Part shown: in pieces, positions 1,959 to 9,735 of the stretch | How positions within the stretch are numbered: position 1 is the first letter of the stretch | Layout of the letters: each line of letters begins with the position of its first letter | NCBI GenBank assembly: GCA_014762625.1 | Contig: JABURQ010000058.1 | Coordinates: 51,066 to 115,065, forward strand | Direction of reading: 5' to 3' | DNA: 64,000 nucleotides | Origin: Planctomycetaceae bacterium | GTDB lineage: Bacteria > Planctomycetota > Planctomycetia > Planctomycetales > Planctomycetaceae | Translations under genes and position numbers: made by a program | The notes under the pieces: generated by a model | Databases searched by the model: none | Seen by the model: only the letters and a program-made list of their open reading frames with translations | What the model was told of the DNA's origin: nothing

Positions 1959-2348
1959 CTAACCACCTTTCACCGTTTTCAAAGCGGCATTCATCTTTTC
2001 GACGGCGGCCTTGAATTCGTCGTCGGAGCCGTCTGCTTTGGCGGCAACATCTTTCGCGGCAGCCACGAACGCATCGACATTGCTTTGACTGGCTCCGCCC
2101 AACTCGGAGGCGGAAGCGATTGCATCAACCTGAGAAGTAAATGTCTCGCTCTTAGCAGCTTCTTTGGCGGCATTGACGTCTCCCATTTCGAGCGGATAGG
2201 AAACAGCCATCAGGGCGTCGTTTTCAAAATCGGACAACTCATTAAATGATACGACTGGAGCCCCTTTGCTCATTTCCTTCACCGACTCGTTATTACAGCC
2301 GGTGAGTACAAGTAACGACAGGCACAATCCCAAACAATATTTCATCAT
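1959..2348 (-). CDS. Small lipoprotein, function unknown
   Basis: MMKYCLGLCLSLLVLTGCNNES: signal peptide plus lipobox; downstream of a DUF1559 gene. Confidence 0.7.
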   Translation of the reverse strand: MMKYCLGLCLSLLVLTGCNNESVKEMSKGAPVVSFNELSDFENDALMAVSYPLEMGDVNAAKEAAKSETFTSQVDAIASASELGGASQSNVDAFVAAAKDVAAKADGSDDEFKAAVEKMNAALKTVKGG

Positions 2349-2441: not shown

Positions 2442-3482
2442 TTAGAACTGAATAACGTTTGCTTCTTGACCGGCTGCGGTGAAGTTGTGGGCCCAACTCA
2501 CACCGTCGACGTTCTCACTCACGAATTTGACAGAGCCATCAGCCATCAAAGCGTGAGCTCCCCCTACATGAGTCGATGAGAGTGGTCGATAGCCGACGTT
2601 TCCACCATTGACCGGATCGGTCCAACTGACCACGTCAACCTGGGGATCGTTAATGCGGTGCATCAAGACGAACTTGTTCGGGTTGGCGGTGTTGTTGGGG
2701 AGGCTACCGTCAACTCGAACTCCCGCGTTGACCTGCCCGCGTGCGGTCGATTCATACCATTCGTACGAGCGACGTCCGGTCTCATTGTTACCATACCCGG
2801 AAGGGTCGATTGTTCCCGGTGAATAGGCGCCTGGCCAACCACTCATACGCGAGAAGCTCTTTCCGCGATAAACCTCACCGACCATCACGGTGTTACTGGT
2901 TCCATCCTGAAAACTGGCCATCGTGGTTCCGGGACGGGTGATCGCTCCCAGATCCTTGCCGCTGGTGGAGCCATGGCTGGCATCACCACGAGCACGAACC
3001 GCGGCACAGTAATTGGATCCAGAACGACTTCCAGATTGTGCCGGAGTCGGGTCACTCGGACAAATGTAGGTCGGAATCACGGTCTGACGCATTTGGTTCC
3101 AGTTCGGCTGCGTCGGGTTATTCATGCAGCCGTTCAGAGGACTTCCTGCAAACCGAAACTGGTTGTAGAGCGGTGCCTGATCCATATAGGGCAGAATCAT
3201 CACGCGCCAACTCCAACCTTGCCCACGAACCCACCCACTGCAATTTGGCATGGCAGGCCCCTGAAACACTCCCGTAGACGGAAAGCGAAAAAACGTGTCG
3301 TGATAGTTGTGTAGTGCCAACCCGTGTTGTTTCAGGTTGTTTTTGCAGGCCGAGCGACGGGCTGCTTCGCGCGCCTGCTGAACTGCCGGAAGCAGCAATG
3401 CCACCAGCACCGCGATGATCGCAATCACGACCAATAATTCAATCAACGTGAACGCACGCCGACGTAAAGAAAAGTGTCTCAT
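2442..3482 (-). CDS. DUF1559 domain protein with prepilin-type N-terminal cleavage/methylation motif
   Basis: MRHFSLRRRAFTLIELLVVIAIIAVLVALLLPAVQQAREAARRSACKNNLKQ...; SD AAAGGAGA upstream of this ATG, so the ORF-track start is too long. Confidence 0.9.
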   Translation of the reverse strand: MRHFSLRRRAFTLIELLVVIAIIAVLVALLLPAVQQAREAARRSACKNNLKQHGLALHNYHDTFFRFPSTGVFQGPAMPNCSGWVRGQGWSWRVMILPYMDQAPLYNQFRFAGSPLNGCMNNPTQPNWNQMRQTVIPTYICPSDPTPAQSGSRSGSNYCAAVRARGDASHGSTSGKDLGAITRPGTTMASFQDGTSNTVMVGEVYRGKSFSRMSGWPGAYSPGTIDPSGYGNNETGRRSYEWYESTARGQVNAGVRVDGSLPNNTANPNKFVLMHRINDPQVDVVSWTDPVNGGNVGYRPLSSTHVGGAHALMADGSVKFVSENVDGVSWAHNFTAAGQEANVIQF

Positions 3483-3664: not shown

Positions 3665-5350
3665 TCAATGAAAAGAGAAACGAGTCTGTTGCAGTTCGTT
3701 CAGTTGTTCCAGAAATTCGGAGGAGCGACGATGCTGGTGGACTGACTTCAATCCCTCCAAAAGTTCACCCAGGATTTGAGCCATCGTCAGGTCGGCGAAG
3801 GCTTCACGACGAAACTCGGGGAGGTTCTGAAGAATGCCGCTGATCTTTGTAACGCATTGCTGTTGATGAGCTTCGAGATCGGCACACTCCCGAAAAGGTT
3901 CCGTCTCGTAAACTTGTAGAGTGATCGACCAGGCTCCCAGATCATCTTCGGGAAGATAGCCGACAATCGCCTTCATGCCTTCGATTTCTGGAACGACGTC
4001 CAGGTTCCAGGTGCTCATGAGAATTTTTTGTTGTATTGTCTGCGAAAACATTTTTGCCAGCTCAAAATGTCCTTCGAAGGTGTAGTGAACGTGCTCTAAA
4101 AAAAATCGATCACCCGGTCCGGCGGGGGAAGCAATTTGTTTGAGATTTTCCGCAACATCCACAAACGCGACATTTGGGGATTCATTCTCGACCAGTTCTT
4201 TGAATACAGTGTGAAATCGGGTCGGAGCGCGAAAGCGGCATCCATCCAGGTCGCGAGCAAGCTCATACTTCTGTCGCGCCAAATCGAACTGTTCGGTCGC
4301 TTCGTAATATTGCGCCAATCGATATTGAAGCAGCGCGTGTTGCTCACAAATCTGAGAGGCCTGATCGAGGAGTGCTTTCGCCTCTGCATAGCTGCGCGAT
4401 TCGAGATACGATTCGGCGACTCGCAACAGTTCATTCCATTCCTCTTCGCGAGATCGATTGCAATTCTCCGGCCAGAAAGCGCGCATGGGGCTGAGCCCAC
4501 GCAGTTTGGAGGCCACGCTGCTCAGGACAACCGGCACGTTCGCTGCCTGAGCGGTGGCGATTGCATGTTTCAGGTTGCGACGTAAATTGGATTCCGCTTT
4601 TTTTACGTAGGTACTTTGAAGCGGGATCTCGAATTCTTGCGGTAAAGCCGTCAGTAAATCCGCGTTGGTGTCTACCGATCTCTCGTTCGACGTAAAAACC
4701 TGGGCCAGCCGAAGCCTCCTCAAATCAAACACCGTTTCGGATAACGCCGAAGATCGCTCCTCGATTGTGGACGCCGAGCCGCCAGGGCCGTAAAACTCAT
4801 TATGCCCGGAATGGATCACAATCAGATCGGGATCGCACGCCAGGCATTGTTCGGTCAGATCCGACACGACAAAACTATTCATCGAGGTCACGCCGGCATT
4901 GAGAACTTCAAAATCGATATCGGGATTTTGAAGTTCCAGTAGGAATTCTATTTGTCGGGGGAAAGCCAGTTCCGAAGCATACGGGAACCCGATGACGGTC
5001 GAACCTCCCAAACAGACGATCCGAAAGACCCCTTTCGGCTTCGGCATTTGGAACGGACGCGGTTCAGGTCCCGAGACGTCCATATTGTCGTAGTAGGCAT
5101 AATCGATGCTGGGATTCAATCGATGCGTGAACGGAGGCAGAGGGGGCTTTAATTCCTGGACGAGTGTGAGATCCCGACCTACACCGAAAGCCCGCAACAC
5201 GATTTCCGTAAACACCAGCATTACAAAAGGAGCAACGACCACAATCGCCCGAAACAACCACAGTCGTTTACGCGAAATATGATGCCGCTTTTTGGAAGGA
5301 GCTTCGGACTTCGTTACATCGATGGGTGAGGGGAGTTTGGAGTCAGTCAT
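3665..5350 (-). CDS. SGNH/GDSL-type hydrolase with TPR-like region, N-terminal TM
   Basis: 561 aa; IVCLGGSTVIGF (block I), HSGHNEFYG (block III), LEHVHYTFEGH (block V); TPR-like YRLAQYYEATEQFDLARQKYELARD. Confidence 0.75.
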   Translation of the reverse strand: MTDSKLPSPIDVTKSEAPSKKRHHISRKRLWLFRAIVVVAPFVMLVFTEIVLRAFGVGRDLTLVQELKPPLPPFTHRLNPSIDYAYYDNMDVSGPEPRPFQMPKPKGVFRIVCLGGSTVIGFPYASELAFPRQIEFLLELQNPDIDFEVLNAGVTSMNSFVVSDLTEQCLACDPDLIVIHSGHNEFYGPGGSASTIEERSSALSETVFDLRRLRLAQVFTSNERSVDTNADLLTALPQEFEIPLQSTYVKKAESNLRRNLKHAIATAQAANVPVVLSSVASKLRGLSPMRAFWPENCNRSREEEWNELLRVAESYLESRSYAEAKALLDQASQICEQHALLQYRLAQYYEATEQFDLARQKYELARDLDGCRFRAPTRFHTVFKELVENESPNVAFVDVAENLKQIASPAGPGDRFFLEHVHYTFEGHFELAKMFSQTIQQKILMSTWNLDVVPEIEGMKAIVGYLPEDDLGAWSITLQVYETEPFRECADLEAHQQQCVTKISGILQNLPEFRREAFADLTMAQILGELLEGLKSVHQHRRSSEFLEQLNELQQTRFSFH

Positions 5351-6608
5351 CGTCCTCTCCCCCGATCGATTTTGAGGGTTGGGGACGAGCCTCGGTAGGA
5401 CTATCGTATTGGTCCCGACGGACGCGTATCCAATGGTCGTGAAACTGGAGTCCTTTCACGAGATCGATCGCCGGCATATGACATTCGATACAGTTACCGG
5501 CGGGTGATACCGGACAGTGAACCTGGTTCGCGTCTTGATGACACGATAGACACGTCTGAATTTGTTGTTCGTGCGAACGGGATTCAATACCTGTGTGAGA
5601 GTCGTGGCAGGTCGTGCAACTGAGGGCGCCATTCGACTTCAGAAAACAGGGGCTCTGTAACAGCCCGACCGGCTGGAAACGAACCAGCGAATTCGGGTAG
5701 CGCTTGAGGCGATCGGGCTCAATGGAATCAGGATTCCGGTGGCACTCGCCGCACATTTTGATTTGAGCCTCAGCCGACCAGCGACTCTTCAAAAACAGAT
5801 GGAGATCCTCGTCGCCACGCTCCGCAGCCGCAACGTGCAGACTTCCCGGACCGTGACACGCTTCGCATTGCACGTTGGCGTACAGGTTTTCCAGTTTTCG
5901 CCCCACGACATCCACAGTTGTCGTATGGCATCCGATGCAACGATCCACGTTGGGTTGTCGAAATGTATGGCCGAAATAATCTCCCGGTTGAGTGGGGAAA
6001 TCGTTTTCCTGTCCGGGGGTGATATCCCAGGTTTCGTCTTCGGCATACCACGTCAATCGGTGTTCAACATTGATCGTTTCCTGCTGTGCATCGAGCATCA
6101 ACGTGATCAATGTCGTCGCATGTTTTCCCGATCCCAAAGCGTAGTCGAGGGGGAAAAGTTTTCCGCCGAACTTTTCGGGAATCGAGACCGTCACCCCTGC
6201 CTCGTCACATTGATAATGATAAGTGCCGTAGACTTCATCGAGCTCGATCTGTTTTCTGCACAGGCGCTGGGCAACCTCGGATTCTTTTGTGGTTGCGAAG
6301 GTGTTCGCATGCGGCGAATTCAAATGCGTCTCAACGATGTCGGAGTGACACTCGGCACATTTCTGATGGCCGACGTACGTTGCCACCTGCTTCGAATTCT
6401 TTTTAGCTTTCGATTTCCTCTGAGACTGATCGTCTTCCTTTGTCTGGCAACCGAGAAAGGCTGCCGCAACAAAGCAAAACAGGATGATCGACAACAAAAA
6501 TCGCAACAAATCTCTCCCAGGTGGAAATCTCGCGGCAAATACTCGCTTTTCAATCAGTTTGAAAAGTCGGACACCCAATTCTATCCCTGACGACATCATA
6601 CTGTCCAA
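5343..6608 (-). CDS. Multiheme c-type cytochrome (7 CxxCH)
   Basis: CAECH, CIGCH, CEACH, CGECH, CTTCH, CLSCH, CIECH; hydrophobic N-terminus; 8-nt overlap with the next gene. Confidence 0.85.
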   Translation of the reverse strand: MDSMMSSGIELGVRLFKLIEKRVFAARFPPGRDLLRFLLSIILFCFVAAAFLGCQTKEDDQSQRKSKAKKNSKQVATYVGHQKCAECHSDIVETHLNSPHANTFATTKESEVAQRLCRKQIELDEVYGTYHYQCDEAGVTVSIPEKFGGKLFPLDYALGSGKHATTLITLMLDAQQETINVEHRLTWYAEDETWDITPGQENDFPTQPGDYFGHTFRQPNVDRCIGCHTTTVDVVGRKLENLYANVQCEACHGPGSLHVAAAERGDEDLHLFLKSRWSAEAQIKMCGECHRNPDSIEPDRLKRYPNSLVRFQPVGLLQSPCFLKSNGALSCTTCHDSHTGIESRSHEQQIQTCLSCHQDANQVHCPVSPAGNCIECHMPAIDLVKGLQFHDHWIRVRRDQYDSPTEARPQPSKSIGGEDDD

Positions 6609-6642
6609 TCGGGATGGGAGACGAGAAAGAGAGTCATTCCGA

Positions 6643-7656
6643 CTAAGGAGCCTCCAGTAAATGAGATAATTCTCTGGTCAGTTGTTCCGCAAGATCCTGA
6701 TCTCCTGAAAAGGCCGCCGCCCGCGCGTACATAGATAGAAACTTGCGGTTGGTTCGTTCTTGCTGATAAAGAGGTTTCAGTTCTTCGCGTGCGAGTTCGT
6801 ATTTTCCCTGTACCATCAGCAGTTCACAGTGGAGCAATCGAGCTTCCAGGAGTTCGGGATTTAACTTCAAAGCTCGATTCAGACTTTGTTCAGCCAGTTC
6901 CATCTCTCCCTGATCCTTGGCGAGCAACGCCTGTTCGAGCCAGAATTCGGGCCAGTTTCGTTTGTCTTCTGACATGGCCTCCAGAGTTTGCCCGGCTAGT
7001 TGCAGTTTTCCCGACTGGCGATAGGCCAGGGCCAGATTGAGTTGAGCCAGACGGTCGTCAGGATGTCTTCGGAGAGATTCCCGCAGAGGCGATATCATTT
7101 CGGGGAATCGATTGAAGCCCGCAAGCAGCAACGCTTTGAGCAGATACGCATCAGATAGTTCCGGATTTTCTTGCAACGCCAGATCAACCTGCGTCAGGGC
7201 GGAGAGGTTCTTACCCAATCGATCGTAAATTCGCGCCAGATGAAAATGCAACTCGCCGTCTGCTTGTCCGCGTTCGACAAGTTGTTCGATGAGCTGCTGC
7301 GCCTCGGACAGTTGCCCCAGTTCATCGTAAAGTTGCGCCTTCAGTTTTTGCGCTTCGAACCAATCACTTGTGTTCTCAGGAATTCGGGAGAGTTCCGCCA
7401 GAGCCCTTCGGCGATCAAATTCACTCAGAAACTGAGCGTACTCCAGTCGAACAGATGCGTCTTCGGGATGAACTCTCAGATATTCATGGTAGAATTCTTG
7501 GGCTTCGTCACGATTTTCCGCTTGTTGCGCATCACGTGCCTGTTGGAGCAGTGACTTTGATCCGGAACGCCAGAACAGGACGATGCCGGTCACCAGGACC
7601 ACTGCCACAATCGTGAGGCGGATCAAATCCCGGAATCCTTTGGAGGATGGTGTCAT
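6643..7656 (-). CDS. TPR repeat protein, membrane anchored
   Basis: 337 aa; N-terminal TM then multiple TPR units (e.g. GELHFHLARIYDRLGKNLSALTQVDLALQENPE). Confidence 0.8.
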   Translation of the reverse strand: MTPSSKGFRDLIRLTIVAVVLVTGIVLFWRSGSKSLLQQARDAQQAENRDEAQEFYHEYLRVHPEDASVRLEYAQFLSEFDRRRALAELSRIPENTSDWFEAQKLKAQLYDELGQLSEAQQLIEQLVERGQADGELHFHLARIYDRLGKNLSALTQVDLALQENPELSDAYLLKALLLAGFNRFPEMISPLRESLRRHPDDRLAQLNLALAYRQSGKLQLAGQTLEAMSEDKRNWPEFWLEQALLAKDQGEMELAEQSLNRALKLNPELLEARLLHCELLMVQGKYELAREELKPLYQQERTNRKFLSMYARAAAFSGDQDLAEQLTRELSHLLEAP

Positions 7657-7660
7657 GTAC

Positions 7661-9343
7661 TCACCTCAGCGATTCCGAGGTGAGGGTCCACAACCGTTCC
7701 CGCCCCTCGACGATGACGAACGATCGATCGGTGGGAACTTTGGAAAACGTTTGGGTGCCGCCGGCGGGCCAGTCGATTTTCAAATCAACTGTATTGCGGT
7801 CTGCTGCAAATCCCAGTAGGTATTGGTTCTCATTGCACGACAGGTATCCCGAACTGCCGCAGAGACTCCATTGATTATCGCTGGTTTTTATGGTGGCTCC
7901 GAAAGCACTTCGATTGCTGGTGGTTCCTATTAACTTCAAGCGTAAAAAGTGCCCTCGCGGAGTCGAATCGTTCCGCAGCAGGGCGGCTGCTGAATTGAGA
8001 TCCAGGACGGCGAGATCGGGGCGCCCATCACGGTTAAAATCGAGTCGAGCCGAACTTCTGCCCACTTTTGGGATATCAAACCATGATCCGCATTCTGTCG
8101 AGATGTCCTGAAAACGACCGCGAACATTTCGATAAAACTGGGGACGTTGCGCGAAAGGTTCCGGACGTCCTAACTCTTCCATCAGATCGTTGACGTGACC
8201 GTTGAGCACAAATAAATCTTTCCAGCCATCGAGATCAGCGTCCAGGACCGTTACGCCGAATGCCAGTTTGGGTCGGCTGGGAGCCCCCAAACCAATCACA
8301 TCGGTCGTATCTAAAAACAAGAGCGGTTGTTTTTGAGAGTAGAACGTGTTGGTCTCATTGAAATAATTCGCCACAAACAGATCGAGCCGGCCATCACGAT
8401 TGAGATCCCCGGAGACAACTCCCATACCGGCTTCCCGTGCCCCCGACTGGTTGATGGCGGTGCCGGAAAGGAGTCCCATCTCGGAGAAACGAAATTCTCC
8501 TTGATTGATCCAGAGCTGGTTGGGGACTGCATCGTTGGCGACATAGAAATCAAGATCGCGATCGCCGTCAAAATCTCTCACGACAACACCCAAACCCTGT
8601 CGTGGAGGTTGGTCGAGAATTCCAGACTTCTTCGTCACGTCTTCGAATTTGCCATCACGTGTATTTCGATACAAGGCATCGTACGCAGGAGGTTGGTATC
8701 TCGGTTGGCAAGTGATGGGGACTTCATTCGTTCCGTGAGTCGCGGTGCAGACTCGATAATGTCCCGGTTCGATTTTCAGATAATGTGAGACGATCAGATC
8801 GAGTTGATGATCGCCGTCCAGATCGGCCCACGAACAACTACTACCGAACCGATTATCGGAAAGGCCTGACGAGACGGCGATCTCCTGAAACGTGCCATCG
8901 CCTTGATTGAGATAGAGTCGATTCTCGCCGAACTCATTAATGAACAGATCGGGAAAACCGTCATTGTTCGAATCCCCGATAGCCAGTCCCATCGCGTAAT
9001 CGGATGGCGTGAATCCTGCCTGCGTCGTCACATCCTGAAACAGTTCTCCGCGAAGATTGCGATAGAGCCGATCGGGTTGGCGATTCCGATGTCGGAAGTT
9101 TTCCGCGTCCCAGGTTGCTCCCTGACCGCAAACGACATCGGGCCAACCGTCCAGATCGTAATCCCAGGCACCGATGCCCGATCCCATCATCAAATGGGTA
9201 TGCCGTTCTTTCGTCGGCGGGGAATGATGGACGAAATTGAATGCGAGTTCCTCGGCGACGTCTTCAAAATGAATGTGGTCCTGCGCGTAGAGCTGGCCGG
9301 ACAGGGGGCCGATCAAAAAAGAAAGCAGGAATACGCGAAACAT
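7661..9343 (-). CDS. CRTAC1-like FG-GAP/VCBS beta-propeller protein with ASPIC/UnbV C-terminus
   Basis: Signal peptide MFRVFLLSFLIGPLSGQLYAQ; repeated D.D.DGxxDLxV motifs; C-terminal GHFLRLKLIGTTSNRSAFGATI..DWPAGGTQTF. Confidence 0.85.
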   Translation of the reverse strand: MFRVFLLSFLIGPLSGQLYAQDHIHFEDVAEELAFNFVHHSPPTKERHTHLMMGSGIGAWDYDLDGWPDVVCGQGATWDAENFRHRNRQPDRLYRNLRGELFQDVTTQAGFTPSDYAMGLAIGDSNNDGFPDLFINEFGENRLYLNQGDGTFQEIAVSSGLSDNRFGSSCSWADLDGDHQLDLIVSHYLKIEPGHYRVCTATHGTNEVPITCQPRYQPPAYDALYRNTRDGKFEDVTKKSGILDQPPRQGLGVVVRDFDGDRDLDFYVANDAVPNQLWINQGEFRFSEMGLLSGTAINQSGAREAGMGVVSGDLNRDGRLDLFVANYFNETNTFYSQKQPLLFLDTTDVIGLGAPSRPKLAFGVTVLDADLDGWKDLFVLNGHVNDLMEELGRPEPFAQRPQFYRNVRGRFQDISTECGSWFDIPKVGRSSARLDFNRDGRPDLAVLDLNSAAALLRNDSTPRGHFLRLKLIGTTSNRSAFGATIKTSDNQWSLCGSSGYLSCNENQYLLGFAADRNTVDLKIDWPAGGTQTFSKVPTDRSFVIVEGRERLWTLTSESLR

Positions 9344-9471: not shown

Positions 9472-9735
9472 ATGTCTGCAGATTTGTCACCCGAAGCTAA
9501 AAACGAAATCGCCGACGCCATTTTCAACCGCCAGAAAATCCACGCCATCAAGCTTTATCGCGAGGCGACCGGCCAAGGTCTCAAGGAAGCAAAGGACTTC
9601 ATCGAAACACTCACTGAGGAGTTACAGGAAAAGTCGCCCGAGAAATTCACCGTGGGAACGGAAAAGGCCGGATGCGGTTCGGCGGTTTTCTTTCTCATCA
9701 GCGGGGGCGGAGTGTTATCATGGTGGTTCGTCTGA
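9472..9735 (+). CDS. Orphan ribosomal L7/L12 C-terminal-domain-like protein with C-terminal TM
   Basis: RQKIHAIKLYREATGQGLKEAKDFIETL matches the L7/L12 CTD pattern; hydrophobic tail SAVFFLISGGGVLSWWFV. Confidence 0.7.
   Translation: MSADLSPEAKNEIADAIFNRQKIHAIKLYREATGQGLKEAKDFIETLTEELQEKSPEKFTVGTEKAGCGSAVFFLISGGGVLSWWFV

Follow-up and report, generated by a model that had tools for sequence, protein, structure and literature searches.

A recurrent planctomycete gene cluster combining a seven-heme cytochrome with TPR, CRTAC1-type, DUF1559 and SGNH proteins

A cluster of genes for exported proteins, the core of which consists of a seven-heme cytochrome, a TPR protein and a CRTAC1-type propeller, usually accompanied by a DUF1559 protein, recurs in Planctomycetota. 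We tentatively propose, with a probability of about 0.42, that the products of this locus form an oxidoreductase complex anchored in the envelope and typical of the phylum, in which the propeller and the TPR protein would form the scaffold, the DUF1559 protein and a small lipoprotein would be surface parts, and an SGNH hydrolase would be an accessory esterase. The constituent families are known but their combination is, to our knowledge, undescribed: we found no published account of the cluster in the literature searched, in agreement with the impression from the sequence alone that the gene set matched no recognised pathway.

Gene content and layout

The window analyzed here, a stretch of 64,000 nucleotides, comes from a Planctomycetaceae genome of 6.23 Mb (G000). 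The four minus-strand genes that had been picked out in an initial, sequence-only reading were all recovered as open reading frames with the same boundaries and spacing, namely a gap of 4 nt between genes A and B, a gap of 34 nt between B and C, and an overlap of 8 nt between C and D. The reading frame of gene A extends to 9490, instead of 9343, if a GTG start is taken, and the B/C gap of 34 nt is counted from the TTG start of C and becomes 43 nt if C starts at the ATG at 6599. Two more genes, E (with the start placed at M34 of a 379-aa ORF) and F (start at M32 of a 160-aa ORF), lie downstream of A-D on the same strand.

Gene A, 7661..9343, minus strand: CRTAC1-type FG-GAP beta-propeller with an ASPIC/UnbV domain and a signal peptide (MFRVFLLSFLIGPLSGQLYAQD)
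Gene B, 6643..7656, minus strand: TPR protein with an N-terminal membrane anchor
Gene C, 5343..6608, minus strand: seven-CxxCH cytochrome c of the c554/OcwA/MccA lineage, in which a beta-rich domain separates hemes 1 and 2
Gene D, 3665..5350, minus strand: SGNH hydrolase, anchored in the membrane and carrying a TPR-like insertion; S117, G153, N184, E419 and H422 are the active-site residues
Gene E, 2442..3482, minus strand: DUF1559 (SBP_bac_10) prepilin-like protein with an H-X9-DG C-terminal domain
Gene F, 1959..2348, minus strand: small lipoprotein with an LTGC lipobox

Pfam searches bore out the domains originally assigned to A-D. In A, the FG-GAP repeats (FG-GAP_3, 9.5e-45) and the UnbV domain (UnbV_ASPIC, 6.4e-8) pass the gathering score; B matches TPR_19 (1.2e-20); C, with its seven CxxCH motifs, matches Cytochrome_C554 (7e-9) and also C7/paired-CXXCH; and D matches Lipase_GDSL_2 (1.7e-5, under the gathering score of this family) and shows traces of TPRs. 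The predicted signal or TM at the N-terminus of each of the four proteins corresponds to a hydrophobic export or anchor segment in all of them. The E protein combines an N-methylation motif, the SBP_bac_10 domain and the H-X9-DG C-terminus, as expected of a DUF1559 prepilin-like protein; this very large family, with 68 members in P. limnophila (PMC10632474), was formerly termed solute-binding (PMC2754498). Divergent from gene A, at 9472-9735 on the plus strand, is a gene for an 87-aa ribosomal L12 C-terminal-like protein with a C-terminal hydrophobic tail.

Conservation, core genes and accessory genes

Among the 170 genomes of the family, close homologues of D (E <=1e-80) were identified in 20, including the window's own, along with one fragment, and close homologues of C (E 1e-50 or better) in 41. 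The cytochrome is present in 16 of the 21 genomes with D as against 25 of the 149 others (Fisher 8e-8, for genomes that share ancestry and are not phylogenetically independent), and the two genes lie within 10 kb of each other, mostly adjacent and overlapping, in about twelve other genomes of the family. Given this recurrence and the significant co-occurrence, a chance grouping of D with C is excluded. A scan of 84,980 species yielded 79 C loci, all of them labeled as Planctomycetota or clearly planctomycete by the company they keep, and the C subfamily thus appears to be restricted to this phylum.

In other Planctomycetota, six-gene blocks recur as circular permutations: the order is A-B-C-D-E-F in the window, C-D-E-F-A-B in L171 (also L151) and E-F-A-B-C-D in L240, with the further variants D-E-F-A-B accompanied by a convergent C (L153/L243) and C-D-A-B (L152). 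Orthologues of A scoring above 400 bits are found beside C in L071-L073, L151-L154, L167-L170 and L240, and in the same loci B comes after A; the E orthologue travels with D, F, A and B, and the F orthologue with E. The permuted loci come from Thalassoglobus, Planctomicrobium, Fuerstiella, Schlesneria, Pirellulaceae and Ca. Anammoximicrobium, not every gene being present in each locus. The neighborhood comparison that had been suggested as a check shows co-conservation beyond the strain, and the initial delineation holds as far as a conserved multi-gene unit of exported proteins is concerned but stops short at four genes, given that in relatives the DUF1559 gene E and the lipoprotein gene F belong to the unit as well.

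The SGNH gene D is a recurrent accessory that was gained or lost at least five times. We assign D to the accessory genes and A, B and C to the core because on the C tree the linkage of D to C changes at least five times, and L071-L073, L167-L170 and other loci contain A-B-C but not D. Altogether, D lies beside 11 of the 84 close cytochromes, and in the C tree the window cytochrome belongs to a supported clade of five members, all with D. Of the gene set originally envisaged, the multiheme cytochrome with two scaffold proteins and an intact SGNH site (S117, G153, N184, H422) stands, whereas the SGNH protein itself is optional; as the defining partner of the cytochrome it was rejected. Since most of the cytochrome/TPR/CRTAC1 relatives have no SGNH gene nearby, the core function cannot be the coupling suggested at first, of electron transfer to the modification of an acylated or glycosylated substrate.

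Core genes are also found fused: A and B form a single 891-aa protein in L224/L263, and the cytochrome and TPRs are joined in one protein in L081 (beside a CRTAC1 gene) and L165 (beside D). Two paralogous modules of the window genome itself (L256, L257) encode seven-heme proteins of the same long, cytochrome-TPR type (634-638 aa), accompanied by CRTAC1 and DUF1559 genes. In the Pirellulaceae loci, the gene after C, which often overlaps it by 4 nt, encodes an unrelated TPR lipoprotein of ~500 aa; DUF1559 and TPR-CRTAC1 fusion genes lie next to this pair. The extension of a 667-aa cytochrome (L214), in which no domain was found, is probably a read-through and was disregarded.

According to family searches, from which the genome-wide counts were derived, the window genome has about 55 DUF1559 genes and 12 UnbV (CRTAC1) matches. 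Each of its six seven-heme cytochromes (on contigs including C152, C181, C103, C119 and C57) has a DUF1559 gene no more than 2.3 kb away; for a distance of 2.5 kb, the same is true of 0 of 66 PSD1 genes (Fisher 6e-9) and of 5 of 82 sulfatase genes (Fisher 9e-7) (the six pairs are paralogous modules, so these p-values overstate independence). Of the close C loci, 59 have 3 kb or more of flank on both sides, and in 36 of these a DUF1559-type gene (>60 bits to E) lies within 3 kb; the relatedness of E varies between loci.

Several other genes were noted around the cytochromes. In a Schlesneria-like MAG (L070:11533-14187, the same locus as L236), genes for DUF5989 and a NodU/CmcH-type carbamoyltransferase are located directly upstream of the C-D pair; this being one D-C locus only, the link was rejected as a general feature. 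In the following loci, a gene immediately upstream of the cytochrome or in the vicinity of D encodes a strongly conserved, apparently multi-pass membrane protein of 356-425 aa that ends in INIHHFIVDGYIWKLGRGDNRRVVE and has no Pfam match.

L069:3760-4887, L157:9671-10948, L159:5152-6222 and L155:7166-8287: conserved 356-425 aa membrane protein

Long multi-pass membrane proteins that by eye have a GT-C-type look directly adjoin paralogous cytochromes (L079:7661-9937, L088:10640-12790, L201:6295-9780, L217:6360-8594), some with weak C-terminal TPR matches and some with no Pfam match. In L069, L156, L157, L159, L167 and L170, two adjacent ORFs (~600 and 207 aa) take the place of a single CRTAC1-type gene, with the UnbV domain in the second (Pfam, shown for L157). 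Selenocysteine, considered because of an in-frame TGA flagged in some relatives, was rejected: in the two cases compared, the own-genome paralogue L078 and L224, the alignments run into the terminal stop codon.

The cytochrome and the SGNH hydrolase

The C protein is a member of the c554/OcwA/MccA (NrfA superfamily) lineage. The top match of the C-family profile is MccA, the octaheme sulfite reductase (4rkm; 4.7e-12), followed by OcwA, the nonaheme cell-surface reductase of Thermincola potens (PDB 6i5b; 3.4e-9), and cytochrome c554 (1bvb; 2.2e-8). The region of hemes 1-4 aligns with the c554 core, to which C adds three hemes and a beta domain. In the AlphaFold model (pLDDT 81.9, pTM 0.72), this beta-rich domain of ~130 residues lies between hemes 1 and 2, the same position as in OcwA and that of the insertion in MccA; a beta-sheet domain is common to OcwA and MccA and missing in other NrfA-family proteins (PMC6703420). 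The best fold match is OcwA (Foldseek E 2.9e-7, probability 1.0), with TM-scores of just 0.41-0.44 and an identity of 15-16%, and MccA matched weakly. Nevertheless, C is neither of the two: unlike OcwA, it has seven hemes rather than nine and no C-terminal three-helix bundle, the model stopping shortly past heme 7, and its TPR, CRTAC1 and DUF1559 partners are unreported for OcwA; unlike MccA, it has no eighth, CX15CH heme and ends ~45 residues past heme 7. Two additional Cys (C321 and C365) are invariant in 44 sequences and might at most be candidates for the Cys pair of the heme-Cu(I) site of MccA, the position of the second not being equivalent in the profile alignment.

All seven CxxCH motifs are invariant in the 44 homologues, as are H100, H183, H258, H338 and H392 outside these motifs, with H390 present in 42 of the 44. 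Thus, there are six conserved candidate distal His for seven hemes, and one open, possibly catalytic heme is predicted. The open heme is probably heme 2, judging by its relatives: heme 2 is the open active site in c554, OcwA and MccA (PMC6703420). A Met or a non-conserved His could occupy the seventh distal site. The lineage and the predicted open heme suggest that C may be an enzyme itself rather than solely an electron carrier or wire.

The D protein retains the Ser, Gly, Asn and His of SGNH blocks I, II, III and V; S117 (GGST), G153, N184 (GHNE) and E419/H422 (EHVH) are invariant in 15 orthologues. Its model (pLDDT 78.6) matches GDSL, acetylxylan and mannan esterases and PatB, from which D differs by the GGST and ExxH variants, an N-terminal anchor, a TPR-like insertion and a helical C-terminal extension. 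The SGNH-TPR fusion perceived at first does contain a TPR-like stretch, but this stretch is inserted into the SGNH domain (approximately residues 299-370, between blocks III and V) rather than joined to it end to end. These features suggest that D is tethered to the membrane and probably active, as an ester hydrolase or acyl transferase. The neighbors of distant SGNH relatives are heterogeneous (sulfatase, symporter, MocA oxidoreductase, ceramidase-like) and share no theme.

Proposed function and alternatives

In the proposed oxidoreductase complex, C would be located outside the inner membrane and would perform or relay a redox reaction, the open heme, probably heme 2, being the site of electron exchange with a substrate that is either small or solid. 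We infer complex formation and the direction of electron flow; the natural A-B and B-C fusions suggest that the TPR protein and the propeller hold C as a scaffold. The prepilin-like E and the lipoprotein F would be co-encoded surface components that may place C, and D, where present, would be an accessory membrane-tethered esterase that probably deacylates (e.g., deacetylates) a polysaccharide, either one of the surface or an imported one.

An extracellular electron conduit associated with pseudopilins, in which DUF1559 proteins carry or organize the cytochrome at the surface, as in the case of OcwA in Thermincola, is compatible with the fold relationship and with the DUF1559 genes that accompany both the cytochromes of the window genome, far above two control families, and the majority of the close C loci with enough flank. 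However, DUF1559 is a very large family, the neighbors scanned with Pfam in annotated loci include no outer-membrane porin-cytochrome (Mtr-type) partner or MtrB-type porin, and we know of no metal reducers among the hosts of the cluster, so we consider this reading unlikely. A locus for polysaccharide modification or degradation, with the cytochrome feeding electrons to an unrecognized oxidative step and D removing acyl groups, in line with the coupling suggested initially, appears rather unlikely. The intact site and esterase fold of D, the carbamoyltransferase and DUF5989 genes next to one D-C locus, and a BNR/glucuronyl-esterase-like gene that adjoins a paralogous cytochrome fit this possibility, but SGNH genes are missing from most cytochrome-TPR-CRTAC1 loci, the neighbors scanned show no recurrent glycoside hydrolase, lyase or LPMO, and the surroundings of distant SGNH relatives are of no uniform kind.

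We regard it as quite improbable that C reduces nitrogen or sulfur oxyanions in respiration, or serves in detoxification as a relative of c554 or MccA, with A and B as assembly factors. Cytochrome c554 and MccA are among its best profile relatives, and OcwA acts on nitrite and hydroxylamine, which it reduces (PMC6703420); yet C has no CxxCK or P460-type signature, neither the CX15CH heme of MccA nor a matching second Cys is seen in it, and the several paralogues per genome suggest diverse substrates. The same reading could draw on the CRTAC1/FG-GAP genes that are flanked by hydrazine synthase-like (heme-protein) genes in some planctomycetes and other organisms (PMC12758564), the closest published observation that we came across, but C showed no homology to hydrazine synthase subunits in any search made and a relationship was rejected, the CRTAC1 neighbor alone being shared. 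Finally, the abundance of CRTAC1 and DUF1559 genes in the window genome and the rearranged gene order between genomes could point to a loose cluster of common planctomycete paralogues with no joint function. This is very improbable and disfavored, given that A, B, C and D orthologues recur in distant genera, with same-strand overlaps and natural fusions.

The DUF1559 and CRTAC1 families belong to the most expanded and least understood ones of planctomycetes. Conserved gene order and fusions tie them to a multiheme cytochrome in which one heme is probably catalytic, and this provides a directly testable functional hypothesis. The cluster hints at a respiratory or redox activity, so far undescribed, in a phylum that is abundant in the environment. 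It is doubtful that the locus represents a Planctomycetota-specific extracellular redox machine, i.e., a compact seven-heme enzyme with a free heme on a TPR/CRTAC1 scaffold, placed at the surface by a DUF1559 pseudopilin, duplicated to several copies per genome and combined with accessory enzymes that can be exchanged, the SGNH esterase being one of them; if true, this would be the first functional context for the DUF1559 family.
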